The notes beneath the pieces were generated by a model. That model made no database searches. It saw nothing but the letters and a program-made list of their open reading frames with translations, and was not told where the DNA came from. From an uncultured Ruminococcus sp. (GTDB taxonomy: Bacteria > Bacillota > Clostridia > Oscillospirales > Ruminococcaceae), in contig CAMWVM010000031.1 of assembly GCA_947177715.1 (NCBI GenBank), positions 1-10,981 of the forward strand: DNA of 10,981 bases, written 5' to 3'. Each line of letters starts with the position of its first letter. Within the stretch, counting starts at the first letter, position 1. Both the position numbers and the translations under genes were made by a program. Below, piece after piece: positions 1,915 to 10,956 of this stretch.

Positions 1915-2331
1915 ATGAGCAGATATAAAAGCGAACAGACCGCTTACAATCCACTGAAAAAGAAATATGTGCCGCTTTGGAGACTTGATACTAACACTGT
2001 GACCGTCACGCACTTCAACGCCGATATGCAGACCGAGGAGAGCAAGAGCTACAACACCGACTTCATCAGGTATCATCTTCATTTTTCTGACAGCCGATAC
2101 CACGACAGGCTTCGCAGGCTCGTCAACGATGGTAAGATCATACAGTACCTCGATGATATGGAGCTGAAAGTCGGTGAAGCTATCTCACGTCAGGTAGAGC
2201 TTGGGAAACAGACCGACAGTTGTTATCTAAAAGCTATCCTCAGCGGTGATGCTGAGAAAATGCTCGGTCTGGAAAACTGCTTCGTCAACATGGCGAGAGA
2301 AGTGGTGTTTGAGTGTATGGTTTATATTTGA
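1915..2331 (+). CDS. TnpV-like small protein
   Basis: A 138-residue protein. Its second half (LVNDGKIIQYLDDMEL, then LKAILSGDAEKMLGLE, ending AREVVFECMVYI) follows the pattern I know from TnpV proteins (PF14198), where a GKL..L..ID segment is followed by LKA.D...W.G and a terminal AEEIVL.ELIY-type end. TnpV is encoded by Tn4451-like transposons and many clostridial elements; its biochemical role is not established. The first 40 residues (YNPLKKKYVPLWRLD) do not match the usual TnpV start. I chose the ATG at 1915 because GAGGTG sits at 1903-1908, overlapping the upstream stop; starting at GTG 1906 would leave no such site. It is the last gene before a strong terminator. No transposase or integrase is visible in the window. 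Confidence 0.55.
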   Translation: MSRYKSEQTAYNPLKKKYVPLWRLDTNTVTVTHFNADMQTEESKSYNTDFIRYHLHFSDSRYHDRLRRLVNDGKIIQYLDDMELKVGEAISRQVELGKQTDSCYLKAILSGDAEKMLGLENCFVNMAREVVFECMVYI

Positions 2332-2336
2332 GGATC

Positions 2337-2368
2337 AACGGCTGTGCCTTCGGGTGCAGCCGTTTTTT
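2337..2368 (+). terminator. Intrinsic terminator of the DUF6809/TnpV-like operon
   Basis: Twelve-base stem AACGGCTGTGCC / GGTGCAGCCGTT (two G-U pairs) closed by a TTCG tetraloop, followed by a six-T run at 2363-2368. The T-run overlaps the stop codon (2367-2369) of the convergent SEC-C gene. On the minus strand the hairpin has no T-run, so it is directional. Confidence 0.92.
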
Positions 2369-4103
2369 AATCATATACGCCTTTGCCTCTACAGCATTTT
2401 TTGAATTTTTTCCCACTGCCACATGGACATAGTTCATTTACTCCTATTTTATTTTTATGTATAGTTTGATATTTTCTTTCCCGCCAAGCAACTTGTATTT
2501 TTCCTATTTTTTCATGGCTTAACTGATCCCATGTGCTTTTAAAAAGACCTCCATGTAATAATGTTGTTTCTCCTGTCAAATTATAATCAACAAAGCACAC
2601 GAAATTTTCATTGTTCAGGTTTATACTTTTATCCTTTCTTGTATCATAACGATAAACATTCATGTAGATTGAGTCAGCTTCCATATTACCAGATTTATGG
2701 TGTATAGTAGGCGAATCAACATTTTTAACTGTTTTTATCCATTCAATACTCTCAGTAATAATGCTTAGTATGGATTCTTTGTCTGAAGTATCACCTATAA
2801 AAAGATTACATCTCAGTCTTTTCCTGTCTACTGTACTGGCATCTGCGATACTATTAATCCTATATCGATCACATTGATAATTAGGAAATCTATGGTATTT
2901 TATTTCTTGCATATCTATTGATGCAGTTGAAGCATCAAATATCAGTGCTTCTTTATTTCCAATTATTTCGCCAGTTATTTCTGTCAATTCACGTTTTTTA
3001 TTCAAAAGATCGGATAGTTGCTCATTAGTGAAACGCATCCAACTTGTCATTAATCTATCGTTGCTAAATGATATATAATATTTAGCATAATTACTGTTTT
3101 GGGAATAAATTAATATTGCGAGCATTACTGCCAAACGCAAAATATATGTGCGGTCTGTATTTGCTATACTGAATTCAGCATTTAATTGATTGAAATGCTC
3201 TACTTCACTGATGTCTCTACAACGTATCGTTGGAATACTGAGTTTCATTCCTAATAAATGAAATGATAAAAAATGATTATTAAAAACCGATTCATTTAAT
3301 AGGTTCCAATTTTGATTCAAAAATACGGTAATTCCAAGCAAGATAGCACTCGAAGTGTCGTAAACATCATTAATCAATTGGTCTAATTCATAAGTTGTTT
3401 TAGTCTTAGATACATTTCGCCCATTCTCGTTGAAATGAAAAACTATTTTTTCTCCGTCCTCTAAGAAAAGAATGCCTCCATGGTTTATAGCGTTTCTAAT
3501 ATTAATATCTACTTTTTGTGTAAGCTTATCATATCCAAATTTGTTCAATATTTCAGTAAGCGGCTTTAGCTTATAATTTGAATGATAGTCTTTTTCTGTT
3601 GTTTGATTGATAAGTAGAGTAATAAAACGGTATAGATTAGTCAAGCAACTTTCTACAATGGATACATAGGTTGGTAATCGGTACTGCCTATTCTTAATTG
3701 GTGCCCTATCATTCAGTCCTGATAAATCATTTATAACACTTGTAATTTGAGTATGGGCATTGTATGCAATAATATACAATTCTAACATCTCATCATCAAT
3801 TAGTACCGATGAATTGTTTTTGACTAAATTGCAAAGATTATCAGATGTTTGACTTAAAACCTCTTTATCCCAATAATAGCAAGGTTCAGTGTTAATAATA
3901 TCGTAAAATATACATATTAGCTCTTGTTGTATATTAGTAATATTATATGGTATTGTTTTTCGTATTGTAATTAGAAAACTATCTTCATTAAACTCAGACC
4001 GATACAGAATATCGGCTGCATCAACGAAAGGGTTCCTTTTATCAAAACCAAAGATATTATTCATAATACTTATCATATTTTTAGCAAATAAACCGTTATC
4101 CAA
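2367..4103 (-). CDS. SEC-C zinc-motif protein with candidate HEPN (RNxxxH) ribonuclease domain
   Basis: A 578-residue protein, last gene of the restriction operon. The C-terminus has a textbook SEC-C motif, CPCGSGKKFKKCC (Cys 559, 561, 570, 571), a zinc-binding module shared with SecA and many stand-alone proteins. Around residues 203-208 the sequence RNAINH, followed by GG, fits the HEPN signature R-N-x-x-x-H used by many toxin and abortive-infection RNases, and it lies in a helical context. No membrane segment or signal peptide is seen. I chose the TTG at 4103 because AAGGAG lies seven bases upstream and the start overlaps the previous stop by 8 nt (TTGGATAA); upstream in-frame starts (TTG 4160, ATG 4139) lack a ribosome site and overlap more. 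Codon use is strongly AT-rich compared with the flanking plus-strand genes. SEC-C is certain; HEPN is inference from one motif. Confidence 0.8.
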   Translation of the reverse strand: MDNGLFAKNMISIMNNIFGFDKRNPFVDAADILYRSEFNEDSFLITIRKTIPYNITNIQQELICIFYDIINTEPCYYWDKEVLSQTSDNLCNLVKNNSSVLIDDEMLELYIIAYNAHTQITSVINDLSGLNDRAPIKNRQYRLPTYVSIVESCLTNLYRFITLLINQTTEKDYHSNYKLKPLTEILNKFGYDKLTQKVDINIRNAINHGGILFLEDGEKIVFHFNENGRNVSKTKTTYELDQLINDVYDTSSAILLGITVFLNQNWNLLNESVFNNHFLSFHLLGMKLSIPTIRCRDISEVEHFNQLNAEFSIANTDRTYILRLAVMLAILIYSQNSNYAKYYISFSNDRLMTSWMRFTNEQLSDLLNKKRELTEITGEIIGNKEALIFDASTASIDMQEIKYHRFPNYQCDRYRINSIADASTVDRKRLRCNLFIGDTSDKESILSIITESIEWIKTVKNVDSPTIHHKSGNMEADSIYMNVYRYDTRKDKSINLNNENFVCFVDYNLTGETTLLHGGLFKSTWDQLSHEKIGKIQVAWRERKYQTIHKNKIGVNELCPCGSGKKFKKCCRGKGVYD

Positions 4104-5031
4104 TATGTTTCTCCTTGACGTATACTTGAAATTCCTCATCAGTAGAGAATACCGTATCAAAATCGTTAGAATTACGCATCTTATCGACTACTAAATCTGA
4201 TGTTATGGTGTTGATGAAAGCCTTAAAATCAGGATTTTCTTCACACAAACGATCAATGGTATTCCAATCAAGCTCATTTTCTTTTGCTGATAGCAGAATC
4301 TCACTTTGAGTATAATCCTCGATGTTCAGTTTTATAAAACCTATTCCGAAAGCACTGTTCAGCCTTCTGAGTTCGTCCATAAAATCAGGATCCTGATCGT
4401 ACTTAAGTGCTACAAGATAACCTTCATTTGCCCAACTTGAATTTGAGACTGCCTGGAAGAAGTATTCTCTTAAAGTTGAAAAGTCGATAGAACGCTTTAA
4501 TTCAAATGAAAAGATTTTGCATTTGCTGTGAGCCATTGCATTCATCAGATGCCGAGTATCTTCACAAAAATCATCAAATGGGTAGCGAATGCCTACAATA
4601 TCAGGGTGCAGCCACTCGTTCTTTCCTTTTTTCTTTTTGTTGGATACTTCATGATATATGGTCTTTGTATAGCTTTTAAAATGTGAATCTGAGAAAACAT
4701 ACGAGGACAATATTTTATGTAAATCTCGTTCCTTATATGAAGGCTTTTCTTCGGTTACAGGTTCTGGAACAGGAGTTGAAGGCACAGTAAGTTCCTTTAA
4801 AAAGAACAATGCTGGTCTTTTTGAAAACTGAATAAAGGGGTTATCATCACCGCCTTGTTTTATACTGACATATATTCTTGCTCCAAGTGTCTGCTCAGGT
4901 GTCTTTCCGTATTTAGGTAGCTTTTTGTGCAGATCATGTTCAACAGCTTTATTCCAAATTTCGTAAACAGACATCGGCTTGTTTTGCATTTTAATTACTT
5001 CTACAGCAAGGTCTAAAAAGGTATATGACAT
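4096..5031 (-). CDS. HARE-HTH protein with PD-(D/E)XK-like core (COG2958-like)
   Basis: A 311-residue protein. Residues 1-78 (SYTFLDLAVEVIKMQNKPMS, then YEIWNKA..., LGARIYVSIKQ) match the HARE-HTH winged-helix domain (PF05066) that links restriction systems and chromatin proteins to DNA. A Pro/Glu-rich linker (about 84-98) leads to a second domain with HPDIVG (Asp144) and FSFELKR (Glu177, Lys179), the spacing of a PD-(D/E)XK nuclease core, followed by FFQAVSNSSWANEGYLVAL. This layout is that of COG2958-type proteins. ATG 5031 is preferred over 5052: AGAGGGG stands four bases before it. The gene begins 24 bases after the endonuclease stop and overlaps the SEC-C start by 8 nt. It may modulate or assist cleavage, or be a second nuclease; no function has been shown that I can cite. 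Confidence 0.82.
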   Translation of the reverse strand: MSYTFLDLAVEVIKMQNKPMSVYEIWNKAVEHDLHKKLPKYGKTPEQTLGARIYVSIKQGGDDNPFIQFSKRPALFFLKELTVPSTPVPEPVTEEKPSYKERDLHKILSSYVFSDSHFKSYTKTIYHEVSNKKKKGKNEWLHPDIVGIRYPFDDFCEDTRHLMNAMAHSKCKIFSFELKRSIDFSTLREYFFQAVSNSSWANEGYLVALKYDQDPDFMDELRRLNSAFGIGFIKLNIEDYTQSEILLSAKENELDWNTIDRLCEENPDFKAFINTITSDLVVDKMRNSNDFDTVFSTDEEFQVYVKEKHIG

Positions 5032-5055
5032 ATAACCCCTCTTTTCAAACATAGT

Positions 5056-6666
5056 TTATAATTGTTGCGGCTTCATATAGCCACGAATAATCTTGTATTC
5101 TTGAATGCTGTCAAAATTATTATCCGCTGAGAATTCAACAAAATCATCAGCGTTCCAAGGATAAATCTCAACGTTATTGATTGCACGTATGAGTGCCACT
5201 TGATCGGCGACATCTTTTACAAGTTTAGGGGCAATAAACAAAGCAAACCATTTTTTATAATGATTCCCTTCATTTTCATCTTTTTCTTTACTTCCAAATA
5301 TATGGTTTCTGATTGAAGGAAGTTCATGTTCGGTTTGAAATGATCTTGAGGTAGCTGCGGTAGGTTCTACTATAGCGTGTATATCATTTTCATAAACATC
5401 TATATCCGTTCCGACGCAGTTGCCATGTTGCCCGCCAGCGGTTCCGTATGGAATACCATCGTCATCGGCTAAATAGTTTGCAATTACAACTACTTTAGGT
5501 AGTTTCTTTTTTATTATCACGGAACAAAGGAACTCAAGTCTAACTGGAACATCTATAAATCGTAATAAAGCATCCTTAGTATCATTTCCATTTGATATAA
5601 TGCTTATTTGAGATTTTAGGTATTCCCAATCATGATTTGAAGCAAACTCGGTAATAGCTTTTTCTTTTGCTGTCAACGCAATTTCGGTATCAATTTTATC
5701 ATCTTCAAATACCAATGACTTATCAATTGAACCCATATAATCAAAGTACGCTTCGTCGCTCTCGAACTCAGAGATATTGTGAGTATATGAATCAATAATA
5801 TGATTGATTTTGTCTATTTCCAGATTGTTAAAGTCAATAAACCTACCGGCACCTCTAAATGAAATTAATCTTGTCATCCTCAGTTTGCGGATTACCTCAT
5901 CTCTGGTTTCTCTGGTTAATTGCTTGAATTTGTAATGAGTGCTTTTCTTGTCAATAAATTCTTTTGTAGCTTCAGCAATAATATTATTTGGAGTGGATTC
6001 GTCAAGAAGGTTCATAGCGTAACTGTAAACCAACTCATCTGAGACATTGTTATAACGAAATTTATTTCTGAATGCTTGTATGTATTCAGCCAATTGGACA
6101 TAATCATTACTATCCCAAGCGATAATAAACGATATATCCTGATAAAAAATTCCTGGGCGATCATACTTTTCTTTTAAATATTTGATTACTTTCAATACCA
6201 AGGAGAAGAAGTTAACCTTGATTGTATTATTTCTGAAAGGATTGTTTACTTGATATTTGGCGAAAACACTTAGATAAGCGGACTGTATATTACTTGAAGT
6301 ATCTTCATCGCTATTATATCCCTGAAGCATTAAGTTTGCAGCAGGAGAGATTTTGACAATGTGTCCTTTTTCCATATATACAAGACCGAGCTCATTCAAG
6401 AACTTGCATTGAGTCCATAATCGTGTTTCCCAACCACCTTCCCAATGATCTTTATGGTCAGTTACCGTATTTTTGAGAAGATATATTATTTTATCGAGTG
6501 AAACACTTCCATGTTCGCTTTCTTTCCATTCTTTATAGTATTTTGCTACTCGCTCAGCTGCATCATCAGATTGATCATCGGCTTCAAAATAAAACTTGCC
6601 TTTATACTCTTTTTTGTAAGTTCCAAGTGTATTCTTAGTAGGCTCAAATTTCTTCTGTCGAATCAA
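5056..6666 (-). CDS. AlwI-family type IIS endonuclease, downstream ORF (lacks first 46 residues, has catalytic core)
   Basis: 536 codons from a TTG start; corresponds to residues 47-582 of the reconstructed AlwI-family endonuclease (PF09491, type IIS, cleaving outside an asymmetric site). The first 275 residues repeat the upstream ORF exactly because of the 827-bp duplication. The remainder is unique and carries the nuclease core: Glu378 in VRLEFL, Asp421/Asp423 in GTDIDV and Glu434 in AIVEPT, the E-D-E arrangement expected of the family. The TTG overlaps the stop of the upstream ORF (TTGA at 6666-6663), so it could be made by coupled re-initiation, though it is not the native start. If the duplication is an assembly error, this and the next entry are one 582-residue gene. 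Family call strong; activity of the fragment unknown. Confidence 0.85.
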   Translation of the reverse strand: MIRQKKFEPTKNTLGTYKKEYKGKFYFEADDQSDDAAERVAKYYKEWKESEHGSVSLDKIIYLLKNTVTDHKDHWEGGWETRLWTQCKFLNELGLVYMEKGHIVKISPAANLMLQGYNSDEDTSSNIQSAYLSVFAKYQVNNPFRNNTIKVNFFSLVLKVIKYLKEKYDRPGIFYQDISFIIAWDSNDYVQLAEYIQAFRNKFRYNNVSDELVYSYAMNLLDESTPNNIIAEATKEFIDKKSTHYKFKQLTRETRDEVIRKLRMTRLISFRGAGRFIDFNNLEIDKINHIIDSYTHNISEFESDEAYFDYMGSIDKSLVFEDDKIDTEIALTAKEKAITEFASNHDWEYLKSQISIISNGNDTKDALLRFIDVPVRLEFLCSVIIKKKLPKVVVIANYLADDDGIPYGTAGGQHGNCVGTDIDVYENDIHAIVEPTAATSRSFQTEHELPSIRNHIFGSKEKDENEGNHYKKWFALFIAPKLVKDVADQVALIRAINNVEIYPWNADDFVEFSADNNFDSIQEYKIIRGYMKPQQL

Positions 6667-7495
6667 TTCCTACCGGCACCTCTAAATGAAATTAATCTTG
6701 TCATCCTCAGTTTGCGGATTACCTCATCTCTGGTTTCTCTGGTTAATTGCTTGAATTTGTAATGAGTGCTTTTCTTGTCAATAAATTCTTTTGTAGCTTC
6801 AGCAATAATATTATTTGGAGTGGATTCGTCAAGAAGGTTCATAGCGTAACTGTAAACCAACTCATCTGAGACATTGTTATAACGAAATTTATTTCTGAAT
6901 GCTTGTATGTATTCAGCCAATTGGACATAATCATTACTATCCCAAGCGATAATAAACGATATATCCTGATAAAAAATTCCTGGGCGATCATACTTTTCTT
7001 TTAAATATTTGATTACTTTCAATACCAAGGAGAAGAAGTTAACCTTGATTGTATTATTTCTGAAAGGATTGTTTACTTGATATTTGGCGAAAACACTTAG
7101 ATAAGCGGACTGTATATTACTTGAAGTATCTTCATCGCTATTATATCCCTGAAGCATTAAGTTTGCAGCAGGAGAGATTTTGACAATGTGTCCTTTTTCC
7201 ATATATACAAGACCGAGCTCATTCAAGAACTTGCATTGAGTCCATAATCGTGTTTCCCAACCACCTTCCCAATGATCTTTATGGTCAGTTACCGTATTTT
7301 TGAGAAGATATATTATTTTATCGAGTGAAACACTTCCATGTTCGCTTTCTTTCCATTCTTTATAGTATTTTGCTACTCGCTCAGCTGCATCATCAGATTG
7401 ATCATCGGCTTCAAAATAAAACTTGCCTTTATACTCTTTTTTGTAAGTTCCAAGTGTATTCTTAGTAGGCTCAAATTTCTTCTGTCGAATCAATT
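5842..7495. repeat. 827-bp head-to-tail tandem duplication inside the endonuclease gene
   Basis: Copies lie at 5842-6668 and 6669-7495, directly abutting. They appear identical by eye, and their translations are identical over 275 residues. The join has at most one shared base (C), and no terminal inverted repeats or target duplications are seen. The copy length shifts the reading frame by two bases and splits the gene. It is either a very recent duplication or an assembly join of overlapping contig ends. Confidence 0.95.
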
Positions 7496-7631
7496 CGGCT
7501 TCTATTTTTAAGATTAATTCGCTGGTTAATACTTCACCTTCATACTGCTTAAATATAGAAATAAAATCGGGTATTCTATATGGATTACGTAAAGTAGTGT
7601 CAAAAGCTATCGGTTTTCTTGCATCTGCCAT
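6663..7631 (-). CDS. AlwI-family type IIS endonuclease, N-terminal ORF (truncated by duplication)
   Basis: 322 codons holding residues 1-321 of the endonuclease plus one junction residue (Asn) before TGA. It starts at ATG 7631, with AAGGGG upstream and 15 bases after the M2 stop, and begins MADARKPIAFDTTLRNPYRI, a typical AlwI-family opening. This part contains the predicted DNA-recognition region, including WEGGWETRLWTQCKFLNELG, which looks like a winged-helix segment, but none of the catalytic residues. The frame is lost at the join of the 827-bp tandem duplication (827 is not a multiple of three). As drawn it could bind DNA but not cut it. Without the extra copy the frame continues as FRGAGRFIDF into the catalytic half. 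Confidence 0.85.
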   Translation of the reverse strand: MADARKPIAFDTTLRNPYRIPDFISIFKQYEGEVLTSELILKIEAELIRQKKFEPTKNTLGTYKKEYKGKFYFEADDQSDDAAERVAKYYKEWKESEHGSVSLDKIIYLLKNTVTDHKDHWEGGWETRLWTQCKFLNELGLVYMEKGHIVKISPAANLMLQGYNSDEDTSSNIQSAYLSVFAKYQVNNPFRNNTIKVNFFSLVLKVIKYLKEKYDRPGIFYQDISFIIAWDSNDYVQLAEYIQAFRNKFRYNNVSDELVYSYAMNLLDESTPNNIIAEATKEFIDKKSTHYKFKQLTRETRDEVIRKLRMTRLISFRGAGRN

Positions 7632-7646
7632 AACATATATATCCCC

Positions 7647-8561
7647 TTAATAATTTGTTACTAATACTTCATAAGACCCTTTCTGCGTATTATCATGGAA
7701 GCTGATATAATTGCTTGTAATGTCAACAACATTGTATTTCTTTGCCCAGGTGTCAAATATCTTGTTATACATATTCTTGTGTCTGATGATATTTGAAACT
7801 GCAAATCGTATATGTCTGCTATTAAGCTCATCGAGAACATTGAGTAGGCGATGCTCCGTTTCAGGATTCCATAGCTTGTTATACTCGCTGAACGAGATAA
7901 GATAAGGCGGATCAAGATAAATAAAGTCATCGGTAGTCGGCTCTATTTTTGAAAGAAACTCCTCAAAATCCAGATTGAATAACTCGATGTCCTTTTCAGA
8001 TACATACTCGAAATACGCATTAAGAGCATTTACTACATTCTGATTAAAGTCAACATTTCCTACGGGCAGATTGAAATCTCCATTGCCATTAAACCTCAGC
8101 ATACGGTTAAAGCCGTAAATAAGCAATACATAGAGTTTCAACAAGTCGGACTTATCGCTGTTGAAATCGGCTCTGAGCTTCATATATGCTTCTTTATTAT
8201 ACTTAGCATAGTAAGTCTTTACAAAGTTGATCTTATATTCATCAGGGACAGTCCTGCCCAGGAAAGAAGCTGAAAGACCGTAGTCATTGATAATATCAGT
8301 CAGTTTGCTCCAGAAGCCGTCAACATCGTTACTGTAATCAAATAACAGTTTATGTAGGGCTATCATGTAGCTGTCTATATCATTAACAAGATAGCTTTCT
8401 GCTTCGGCGTTAAGGAAAACACTACCACCTCCGCAGAAAGGCTCAATGAACCTGTCAATATCAGTTGGAAAATGCCCTTTAAGTTGCGGAACGAGCTTAA
8501 ACTTATCTCCCACATAGAAGAAGGGCGATCTTCTGAAAGAAGCAGCTATCTGAGTTTTCAT
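7647..8561 (-). CDS. DNA N6-adenine methyltransferase, D12/Dam class (M2 of the AlwI-like system)
   Basis: A 304-residue intact methylase. In order: YVGDK (motif X region, 16-20), FIEPFCGGGS (SAM-binding motif I, from 38), NGNGDFNLPVG (158-168, typical of Dam-like enzymes) and YLDPPY (catalytic motif IV, DPPY at 217-220), with a Dam-like C-terminus. It transfers methyl groups from SAM to adenine N6 on one strand of the site, protecting host DNA from the endonuclease encoded next. The start is ATG 8561 or GTG 8570; GTG overlaps the M1 stop (GTGA), so coupling is likely either way and the ATG is chosen because Dam-like proteins begin near it. It is the only undamaged member of the restriction-modification trio. 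Strand specificity cannot be read from sequence. Confidence 0.93.
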   Translation of the reverse strand: MKTQIAASFRRSPFFYVGDKFKLVPQLKGHFPTDIDRFIEPFCGGGSVFLNAEAESYLVNDIDSYMIALHKLLFDYSNDVDGFWSKLTDIINDYGLSASFLGRTVPDEYKINFVKTYYAKYNKEAYMKLRADFNSDKSDLLKLYVLLIYGFNRMLRFNGNGDFNLPVGNVDFNQNVVNALNAYFEYVSEKDIELFNLDFEEFLSKIEPTTDDFIYLDPPYLISFSEYNKLWNPETEHRLLNVLDELNSRHIRFAVSNIIRHKNMYNKIFDTWAKKYNVVDITSNYISFHDNTQKGSYEVLVTNY

Positions 8562-8566
8562 AGTAA

Positions 8567-9109
8567 TCACTTCACTTTAACAATAAAAATCAGTTCTTTA
8601 TGGTCGTTAAAATCGGTTTTCCCCGCATTGAAGAAGTTGTGTGATGTTTCAAATTGCTGGACTTCTCCTCTTGCAGACAGGGCAGTTTCAATATCTTCAA
8701 GTGTCATTTTGTTTTTGGAAGAACTGCTCTTGGATTCATATGTGTTGTTATACGAAACAACGATATATTTGCAATCAAGGCTGTCAATAAGTTCCTTGAA
8801 TACTATTTTCGCTTTATTGCGGCAGTAGTCGCTCATGTTTTCGGGATCAGGCTTTAGGGCAACCCCATGAAGCTCAGGCTTTCTCCAGCAAGTGATGTTC
8901 TCCAGTACATGATAAAAACGGCTGTACTGTCTTGAATTGTACGGAGGATCAATATAGACTATATCACATTTGAGTTTTTTAGCAAATTCATTGGAATCTT
9001 CCCTTGATATGAAGATTAGCGATTTTTTTGATTTGTATGGTGCTATAAGATCAAATGTAAAGGTATCAGGAATATCGTGTCCCTTTATGTAAGCATCATA
9101 GTGACCCAC
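8567..9109 (-). CDS. Adenine methyltransferase M1, C-terminal fragment with DPPY
   Basis: 180 codons from a GTG; contains YIDPPYNSRQYSRFYHVLEN, i.e. catalytic motif IV and everything after it, but neither motif X nor the SAM-binding motif I. Its first 51 residues duplicate the end of the N-terminal fragment. The frame continues upstream of the GTG to a TAG just beyond the duplication join, with no better start, and no Shine-Dalgarno sequence precedes the GTG, so translation is doubtful. The stop TGA overlaps the possible GTG start of M2. Joined to the N-terminal fragment after removing one 253-bp copy, it gives a continuous 335-residue D12-class methylase. Best viewed as half of a gene broken by duplication, or by misassembly. 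Confidence 0.78.
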   Translation of the reverse strand: MGHYDAYIKGHDIPDTFTFDLIAPYKSKKSLIFISREDSNEFAKKLKCDIVYIDPPYNSRQYSRFYHVLENITCWRKPELHGVALKPDPENMSDYCRNKAKIVFKELIDSLDCKYIVVSYNNTYESKSSSSKNKMTLEDIETALSARGEVQQFETSHNFFNAGKTDFNDHKELIFIVKVK

Positions 9110-9462
9110 GGTATTAGCACTTTTATCTGCTGAATAGAGCAGAGATGCAAGAAGTATAGAAAATTCCTTGTCCGATAGTTTTTCCTTATCGGATTCGATG
9201 ATTTCTCTTGACTATATCACATTTGAGTTTTTTAGCAAATTCATTGGAATCTTCCCTTGATATGAAGATTAGCGATTTTTTTGATTTGTATGGTGCTATA
9301 AGATCAAATGTAAAGGTATCAGGAATATCGTGTCCCTTTATGTAAGCATCATAGTGACCCACGGTATTAGCACTTTTATCTGCTGAATAGAGCAGAGATG
9401 CAAGAAGTATAGAAAATTCCTTGTCCGATAGTTTTTCCTTATCGGATTCGATGATTTCTCTT
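8957..9462. repeat. 253-bp head-to-tail tandem duplication inside the M1 methylase gene
   Basis: Copies at 8957-9209 and 9210-9462 abut directly and are identical by eye. No homology is seen at the join. The length is one more than a multiple of three, so the frame is lost immediately before the DPPY motif. There are no transposon ends. Confidence 0.95.
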
Positions 9463-9824
9463 ATATGTCCAATCAGTTTTGCATCAGTGTGTGAGAAGAA
9501 CTTACCTCCGAAATTAATGGAGATGTAATTCTCATCTATATCATCAGCTGACAGAGATTGAAAACAGCTACAATATTCAGAAATCAACTTCTTATCATAG
9601 TCAGAAGGCTCAAAGAACGCTTTATAAATAACTTCGTTTGAGTAAAGAAAGTCATTGATGTATATTTTCTTCATTTTATCAAGCATAGTATATGAAATAA
9701 TGCCTGTTCCTGCAAAGATATCACAAAAAGAGCTGCCATTGCAGTTCTCCTCAATCAATTCTCCGATCCAAGAGGAGAGCTTATACTTACTGCCTGTATA
9801 TCTCCTGTTCCAAATATCAAACAT
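9186..9824 (-). CDS. Adenine methyltransferase M1, N-terminal fragment with SAM-binding motif
   Basis: 212 codons. NRRYTGSKYKL (residues 6-16, motif X) and FCDIFAGTGIIS (from 33, motif I FxGxG) identify a D12-class N6-adenine methylase of the type paired with type IIS enzymes. The frame breaks after KCDIV, one residue before the YIDPPY catalytic motif, and reads six foreign codons to a stop at 9186. As drawn the fragment can bind SAM but cannot methylate. ATG 9824 is chosen because GGAG stands seven bases upstream; an in-frame ATG at 9854 lies only three bases beyond the -10 box and would fall at or before the transcription start. First gene of the operon. The intact protein would have 335 residues. 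Confidence 0.83.
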   Translation of the reverse strand: MFDIWNRRYTGSKYKLSSWIGELIEENCNGSSFCDIFAGTGIISYTMLDKMKKIYINDFLYSNEVIYKAFFEPSDYDKKLISEYCSCFQSLSADDIDENYISINFGGKFFSHTDAKLIGHIREIIESDKEKLSDKEFSILLASLLYSADKSANTVGHYDAYIKGHDIPDTFTFDLIAPYKSKKSLIFISREDSNEFAKKLKCDIVKRNHRIR

Positions 9825-9857: not shown

Positions 9858-9886
9858 ATTATATCACAAACAATCAGAAAAAGCAA
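9858..9886 (-). promoter_or_regulatory. Strong promoter of the restriction-modification operon
   Basis: Reading the minus strand: TTGCTT (9886-9881), 17-base spacer, TATAAT (9863-9858), with TG one base before the -10 box (extended -10). Near-consensus for a vegetative sigma factor. It lies 33 bases before the chosen M1 ATG at 9824. The rest of 9855-9960 shows no convincing terminator for the upstream DUF6076-like gene, so some read-through is possible. Confidence 0.85.
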
Positions 9887-9960: not shown

Positions 9961-10956
9961 TCACTTGTTCTCCGCCAGTGCCTTATCCCTGAAAGCCTTG
10001 ATGATAGCTTCCTGTTCCTCGATCGTATGAGCAAGCTCCTCAACAGGCAGTCCGAATTCTTCACATTCTGCCAGCTTGCTGTCAACGATAGCCTTGCATT
10101 TCTTTTTCAACTCCTCAAATTCGTCCATGACAAACGGGCTGACTTTGGCTATCTTCAAGTCTCTTTTCCTGTTTCTGACATAAGTGTTGTAATTATCCGT
10201 ATCATGCGTGTATTCGCTGTTTTTACGTTTCTCTCTTGTCATCTGATTTTTCAGTCTTTTATTTTCAGCAAGACACTCCTTACGGTCACAGCATATAGCT
10301 TCTTCCGTTCCGAGAAAATGGCGGTGACAGAACCTGCACTCGCACACTTTAAGTCCGGCATTAAACACAGCGAAGCTGAATTCATAGAAAAATGTGAGAA
10401 GTGGTTTGTCAGCAACACGATACACGATGTTGGTATTCTCGGTGCGTATGACAGCAAGCTGCGATCTCGGAGTGGCAACCAGAATTTCTCCAGTAGCCGA
10501 GTAGTCGAAATTACGCTCATCGTTCATAGCCTGCAATATCTCGTCAAACTGCTTTTGAAGCTCGGCTCTTGCCGTTTCCACCAGCTTTTTATGGTTGAAC
10601 CTCTCCTTAACATAGTCCTTCGGCATCAGGATAGGCTCACCGATATTCATATAGGCTATCGTGAGCAGATTACTGTAATACTTGAAAAATACGTTGTCGC
10701 TATTTTCAAGTACAGCAGACTCAACGTTTTTAACAAGCTCTTGTACCTTGATGCGCTCATTCAGACCGCTCATCATAGTGATACGGAGATTTTCAAATAT
10801 CTCACTGCGGTTATTGCGAAAATCTTCAAGCTGGGACAGTATATCATCAAATGTATAGACTTGTTCTTTTTCAAAAGCTGACAGAAGTTCATCTTTATTG
10901 ATAGACCACACTATACTCACGGTGCGGTCTTTTTCATTTATACGGTACAGCAGCAT
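9961..10956 (-). CDS. DUF6076-like protein with CxxC...CxxxxC zinc finger
   Basis: A 331-residue protein. An alpha-helical N-terminal two thirds without recognisable catalytic residues leads to a treble-Cys zinc-finger pattern: Cys207-x2-Cys210, then Cys222/Cys223 and Cys228, followed by a basic stretch (KNQMTREKRK, NRKRDLK) and C-terminal charged helices ending EEQEAIIKAFRDKAL. The pattern is reminiscent of CGNR-type fingers and of the DUF6076 family as I recall it from Clostridia. A nucleic-acid-binding role is plausible from the finger and basic patch but unproven. The start is well fixed: AAGGAG is ten bases before ATG 10956. It points the same way as the restriction operon but is separated by 136 bases and that operon's own promoter. 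Base composition resembles the plus-strand accessory genes more than the AT-rich operon. Confidence 0.68.
   Translation of the reverse strand: MLLYRINEKDRTVSIVWSINKDELLSAFEKEQVYTFDDILSQLEDFRNNRSEIFENLRITMMSGLNERIKVQELVKNVESAVLENSDNVFFKYYSNLLTIAYMNIGEPILMPKDYVKERFNHKKLVETARAELQKQFDEILQAMNDERNFDYSATGEILVATPRSQLAVIRTENTNIVYRVADKPLLTFFYEFSFAVFNAGLKVCECRFCHRHFLGTEEAICCDRKECLAENKRLKNQMTREKRKNSEYTHDTDNYNTYVRNRKRDLKIAKVSPFVMDEFEELKKKCKAIVDSKLAECEEFGLPVEELAHTIEEQEAIIKAFRDKALAENK

Follow-up and report, generated by a model that had tools for sequence, protein, structure and literature searches.

The described systems that stand closest to the locus treated here either pair restriction-modification (RM) genes with HEPN RNases or place nucleases carrying a HARE domain beside DNA modification genes. 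Sections of the survey by Anantharaman et al. (2013, PMC3710099) place at least 16 HEPN clades in RM neighborhoods and see in them a second line of defense once restriction has been overcome, with PrrC and its type Ic RM system PrrI as the model case; the term SEC-C is absent from the main text of that paper. Passages of three further papers concern HARE: fusions of this domain to a restriction endonuclease (REase) domain lie beside Dnd genes and are proposed to discriminate modified DNA (PMC10853773), such fusions, and also HEPN RNases acting as backup effectors, lie beside BREX genes (PMC12839542), and the HARE helix-turn-helix (HARE-HTH) is considered a possible reader of modified DNA (PMC11037411). 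In Helicobacter pylori, according to excerpts of two papers, hrgA occurs where the restriction gene of the MboI-like HpyIII system is lacking (PMC4687069, PMC4615327). Here we describe a five-gene cassette in a 10,981-nt stretch of DNA from an uncultured Ruminococcus sp. (GenBank assembly GCA_947177715.1, contig CAMWVM010000031.1), hereafter the window, in which two adenine methylases and an AlwI-family restriction endonuclease are followed by a HARE protein and a predicted RNase of a HEPN-SEC-C family. In the fragmented metagenome-assembled genome (MAG) from which it comes (1,736,549 bases in 277 contigs, 80% complete), the window is contig C31.

In a Pfam scan of the window, the cassette runs on the minus strand from 9824 to 2367. 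M1 (8567..9824, starting at ATG 9824) is a D12-class adenine DNA methyltransferase, M2 (7647..8570) a Dam-family D12 adenine DNA methyltransferase with an intact open frame, and R (5056..7631) the AlwI-family endonuclease; behind them lie the HARE gene (4096..5031), an intact frame of 311 aa that encodes a HARE-HTH plus PD-(D/E)XK protein of the HrgA/COG2958 type, and the HEPN gene (2367..4103), likewise intact. With the likeliest starts, M1 and M2 overlap by 4 nt (M2 starting at GTG 8570), M2 and R are 15 nt apart, R and HARE 24 nt apart, and HARE and HEPN overlap by 8 nt if HEPN begins at TTG 4103, which has AAGGAG upstream. An earlier sequence-only reading of the window had proposed a single cassette of tightly joined genes with no internal terminator, and both points held: the largest gap among the five minus-strand genes is 24 nt, two junctions overlap, and the terminator scan lists no minus-strand site within the cassette. 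The five genes are likely co-transcribed.

Comparison with two relatives shows that this cassette is a mosaic. A scan of genome contigs for HEPN-SEC-C returned three loci; G715 and L019 were rejected as independent loci because they are the same contig. In L019 (CANRLY010000024.1, from the rabbit MAG 'Lapin', an uncultured Clostridia), the order is M1, M2, a FokI-type enzyme with FokI D1, domain 2, D3 and cleavage domains, HARE and HEPN-SEC-C. The sole block that blastn found between the window and L019 covers window positions 2106..5032 at 90.4% identity with one gap; on its upstream side the block stops at the HARE start codon, on the other it extends through HEPN into the gene behind, and no DNA similarity was detected in the RM genes upstream of the HARE start. 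The opposite edge is marked by G011, a locus from the same genus as the window, which has FokI-type methylases, HARE at 97% protein identity, and a RES-like gene in HEPN's place. Between G011 and L019 the methylase region is 93.5% identical and HARE 98.5%; similarity stops at the HARE stop codon, another gene comes next, and similarity returns behind it. The RES-like gene of G011 is split by one in-frame stop, and its pieces themselves gave no RES match in Pfam; 20 relatives of its 3' half were found, and of eight relatives of this gene scanned for RES, four scored above the cut-off, two below it and two had no match. Thus the RM genes differ between the window and L019, the effector differs between L019 and G011, and HARE is constant.

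The HARE protein begins with a HARE-HTH domain (PF05066, E 1.6e-12, 48 bits against a cut-off of 25.9). The paper on this domain is that of Aravind and Iyer (2012). Pfam gave no match to its PD-(D/E)XK part, which we assign from a conserved motif and fold matches: among the aligned relatives P150 is present in 23/23, D151 in 22/23, and E184 and K186 of the E184-x-K186 element in 23/23, while the fold search recovered a winged helix and, for the C-terminal part, rows that include restriction and repair nucleases, with PaqCI and EndoMS at middling Z. No PADLOC-DB 2.0.0 model matches the protein. On these grounds HARE is predicted to join a nuclease domain to a winged helix. The ratio of nonsynonymous to synonymous substitution rates (dN/dS) is 0.028 between the window and L019 for HARE and 0.145-0.162 for HEPN, and we therefore conclude that both have been kept as proteins.

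The second tail gene encodes 578 aa from TTG 4103; its longest frame opens at 4160 (597 aa), and the relative P0002 begins at the equivalent of TTG 4103. Its C-terminal SEC-C domain was found by Pfam (E 6.9e-8). The HEPN domain has no Pfam match and is assigned by the conserved RX4-6H motif, R222-NA[IV]N-H227, present as RNA[IV]NHG in 33/33 aligned relatives, and by fold matches to the helical HEPN fold. An ABC-ATPase of the PrrC/RloC kind was not found in the 597-aa protein, where Pfam to E 10 gives SEC-C only, and PADLOC-DB 2.0.0 recognizes just the SEC-C end, through CBASS E2-type and PDC-S12 models. We regard the protein as a predicted RNase effector. With these assignments, made by Pfam, motifs and folds, the two tail genes come out as the sequence-only reading had named them.

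How often do these genes keep company with RM genes elsewhere? HARE was sampled in overlapping genome sets that include the window's own genome, with HARE in 2/61 relatives, 3/391 genomes of the class, 4/396 of the family and 2/16 of the genus. Over all chromosomal, viral and plasmid loci, HARE lies beside RM genes in 15/31 (16/31 with one doubtful case, L072), a lower bound, since our RM panel detects only relatives of the proteins included in it. Five of the seven distinct chromosomal loci are RM-linked (the window, L019, G011, G677 and G553). In G677 and G553 a Dam-like methylase, a DpnII-type R, HARE and a further methylase follow each other, G553 having one more frame between the first two of these genes. 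At L090:7720-11450 and L091:6739-11544, from a pair of genomes within the same family, HARE lies inside DpnII-type operons, between the restriction gene and a further methylase. In G305 and G249 no RM neighbor of HARE was seen, the G305 stretch being partly masked. Viral contigs supplied seven loci, one of them RM-linked (L068, where HARE adjoins methylases and an AAA restriction gene) and one doubtful (L072, where a type IIG enzyme lies 3.5 kb off and the HARE frame itself is split); in the five others neither visual inspection nor the panel revealed an RM gene, and for two of these a single flank was available. Four IMG/VR viral contigs with HARE and no visible RM (L069, L070, L071 and L073) have neighbor genes in common with one another, and phages may themselves carry the HARE nuclease. 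Among plasmids, 25 HARE/HrgA records matched and 17 were examined, some of which share an HrgA protein accession and so are not independent. HrgA is embedded in type I genes or adjoins them on 9/17, and no such genes were seen on 8/17; seven of the nine were recognized from annotation and two more (L108, L111) by a panel check of all open frames, which placed unannotated type I R pieces directly after HrgA. On Proteus and Vibrio plasmids the order is M-S-HrgA-R. A gene for a large AAA ATPase and a TPR gene lie upstream of HrgA on plasmids of Shewanella (L107:1226-6579) and Escherichia marmotae (L111:1133-6435), and are perhaps another exchangeable HrgA partner pair. HARE accompanies many RM types, not AlwI specifically.

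The other members of the cassette are less constant companions. HEPN-SEC-C is RM-linked in 2/7 loci, the window and L019, both of which also have HARE; neither RM genes nor HARE accompany it in L020, in the fragments L021 and G317, or on plasmids of Priestia and Leuconostoc, whose proteins are 23-27% identical. The family is rare, with 2/396 family genomes and 2/331 class genomes. A full-length HEPN-SEC-C query matched 52/61 genomes, and apart from the window's own these were short C-terminal matches, mostly to frames of about 900 aa, which we take to be SecA; subsequent searches relied on an alignment from which the SEC-C tail had been removed. A protein search of public genomes and metagenomes gave 135 clusters for the HEPN-SEC-C protein, 120 of them among the matches listed. 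The AlwI domain PF09491 occurs in 6/331 class genomes, the window included, and neither HARE nor HEPN was found near the five other AlwI loci in the stretches read, of which L102 is cut by a contig end just upstream of R and L103 just downstream, so that these two are partly blind. Conserved adjacency of AlwI-type R with HARE, by which the sequence-only reading could be checked, is therefore not general, and we rejected AlwI-HARE as a fixed pair. That reading also named as a counterargument that the tail genes might lie mostly away from RM loci; in the loci seen this is the case for HEPN and not for HARE.

We see about an even chance that the cassette is an RM operon of type IIS to which two genes have been added, one for a second DNase and one for a toxic backup effector, with HARE as the constant hinge. 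The operon would probably reside on a mobile element. R and the two methylases would form the first layer, R cutting unmethylated DNA; the winged helix of HARE would most likely read the modification state of DNA, and its nuclease domain would then cut whatever DNA gets past R. Should both layers fail, the HEPN protein would cleave cellular RNA and halt growth; the parts might also be physically coupled. RM modules would be exchanged on the 5' side of HARE and effectors, HEPN-SEC-C or RES-like, on its 3' side. This reading draws on gene content, on motifs and predicted folds, on the places where the mosaic breaks, on the purifying selection that acts on both tail genes, and on the recurrence of HARE in other RM operons. 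The layered defense that the sequence-only reading had proposed is favored by the anatomy of the cassette, by the HEPN-RM precedent in sections of PMC3710099, and by HARE-HEPN following a FokI-type RM system in a second genome. Two observations weigh against it. One is that HEPN is mostly unlinked to RM; the other is the worn state of the RM genes in both relatives, the M2 start of L019 being out of frame and its FokI-type enzyme lying in separate frames, with M1 split and R reduced to its beginning in G011. Nothing speaks more strongly for HARE working without R than this wear, whether it reflects biology or MAG quality. We also entertain, more tentatively and as a rather doubtful extension, that HARE is a general immunity coupling module, a sensor that triggers an effector, for which RM systems (AlwI, FokI, DpnII, type I) and effectors (HEPN-SEC-C, RES) would be exchangeable.

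The wear bears directly on a rival explanation, possible though somewhat unlikely, in which HARE and HEPN make up an abortive system of their own: HARE would sense foreign or damaged DNA and release the HEPN toxin independently of RM, and its place behind RM genes would reflect no more than a shared location in defense islands. In L019 and G011, where RM genes are broken, HARE keeps an open frame, as does HEPN in L019; both tail genes are under purifying selection, their reading frames overlap, and at 15/31 loci HARE was seen without an RM gene. However, gene breaks in MAGs are possibly assembly errors, which weakens the argument from broken RM genes; G011 has HARE without HEPN, HEPN relatives are found without HARE, and at the DpnII-type and type I loci HARE is placed between core RM genes, beyond mere adjacency. 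Another explanation is that recombination of mobile elements placed the five genes in a defense island and that a shared promoter is their sole functional tie. Such hitchhiking would fit the mobile-element setting (a relaxase-like gene by L019 and L022, a DUF6809 gene and a shared downstream gene by the window), the HEPN genes, most of which have no RM neighbor among the loci seen, and the AlwI loci without HARE, but it would not lead one to expect exchange edges that coincide with the HARE start and stop codons, genes that overlap or almost touch, or the recurrence of HARE within or next to RM operons of the AlwI, FokI, DpnII and type I kinds; we think it quite unlikely. Finally, HARE might be a regulator that tunes expression of RM and effector genes, like RNA polymerase delta, with which it shares the HARE domain, and not a nuclease. 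The conservation of PD...ExK (P, E and K throughout, D in all but one relative) and the nucleases among the C-terminal fold rows make this highly improbable.

The RM genes of the window are themselves broken as assembled. Their families are as the sequence-only reading gave them: Pfam finds two PF02086 genes, M1 as two pieces that both match, and M2 (E 3.5e-34), which also reaches 153.2 bits in the Dam-subfamily model TIGR00571 (cut-off 114.85), while the C piece of R matches RE_AlwI PF09491 (E 4.1e-24, 85.8 bits against 23.1). AlwI recognizes GGATC and cuts outside this site. The trio is, however, not intact as assembled: that reading had missed two exact tandem duplications, one of 253 bp in M1 (8957-9209 and 9210-9462) and one with a period of 827 bp in R (5842-6669 and 6669-7496), and as neither 253 nor 827 can be divided by three, the frames of both genes are broken. 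The N and C pieces of M1 match positions 4-209 and 158-338 of the 339 in the PADLOC type II methyltransferase model PDLC03373, those of R positions 79-295 and 78-526 of the 542 in PDLC03507, and because the joined pieces cover 4-338 and 78-526, no further break is visible. As an artifact control we searched 538,571 bases, in stretches taken from 40 further contigs of this assembly, and found four additional exact tandem duplications, with periods of 203, 109, 221 and 622 and overlaps of 1-4 bases (L028:10707-11116, L030:5378-5596, L030:12839-13281 and L053:9250-10494), which makes six, with 0-4 bases of overlap, in 549,552 bases including the window. The duplication of period 109 splits a class II fructose-bisphosphate aldolase; as this central glycolytic gene is unlikely to be truly broken, we read the duplications as assembly artifacts, probably also in M1 and R. 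Such artifacts in a MAG would look like pseudogenes. Phase variation is not favored, given the exact copies at four other places, one of them in the aldolase. Two duplications in one 11-kb contig, against 0.08 expected at the control rate (P about 0.003, post hoc), leave a small chance of something real. In L019 and L022 no tandem repeats of this kind were found.

The single strong promoter that the sequence-only reading had placed before M1 fared unevenly. An extended -10 promoter-like element, TGATATAAT, is present on the minus strand at 9858..9866, upstream of M1 and separated from its start by 33 nt. The sigma-70 scan, whose 50 sites are overall not far from the mean of 36.4 (sd 5.5) in shuffled sequence, gives no strong -35 for it and no outstanding promoter site upstream of M1. 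The gene upstream of M1 on the same strand (331 aa, 9961-10956) has cysteine pairs and a sub-threshold DUF6076 match only. A DUF6809 gene and a shared downstream gene adjoin the window's cassette. A relaxase-like gene, identified by eye, adjoins FokI-type cassettes at L019:12390-13374 and L022:8395-9291, which suggests a mobilizable element.

The cassette and its related loci suggest a swappable, layered defense. Layered RM-HEPN defense and HARE nucleases are already described; new, as far as we searched, are HEPN-SEC-C as an RM neighbor and, from three loci, exchange on both sides of a HARE gene that stays constant. The sequence-only reading had held the exact composition to be undescribed, and literature searches gave no contradiction, though the layered principle is known: among the matches listed, no title or abstract opening described such a combined system, and full-text searches found no paper on COG2958 or on HEPN with SEC-C, a family of more than 100 protein clusters to which the cassette draws attention. 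Type II RM systems are usually regarded as self-contained, and exchanges at exact gene edges show which genes travel together. They single out as the shared component a little-studied nuclease family whose name is known from H. pylori hrgA. If HARE does act as a coupling module, plain type II restriction would become a sensing-and-abort system.

Set beside known systems, the window has in common with AlwI and FokI type IIS RM an R of the same family and two D12 adenine methylases, and differs from the five other AlwI loci, where the stretches read contain neither HARE nor HEPN. Textbook AlwI and FokI systems are not known to include either gene. The window's HARE protein is matched by plasmid proteins that bear the name HrgA, and H. 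pylori HrgA is likened to it by name, not alignment; in H. pylori hrgA replaces R, whereas in the window R and HARE coexist and the HEPN gene follows. With PrrC and other RM-linked HEPN proteins the likeness is a HEPN RNase gene beside RM genes, but in PrrC and RloC an ABC-ATPase is fused to HEPN, while the window's protein has no ABC-ATPase, and its gene is linked to those of a HARE nuclease and of a type IIS RM system. The HARE-REase proteins beside Dnd and BREX have this pair of domains too and likewise lie with modification genes; here, in contrast, the modification side is type II/IIS RM (AlwI, FokI, DpnII), and HARE stays fixed between partners that are swapped.

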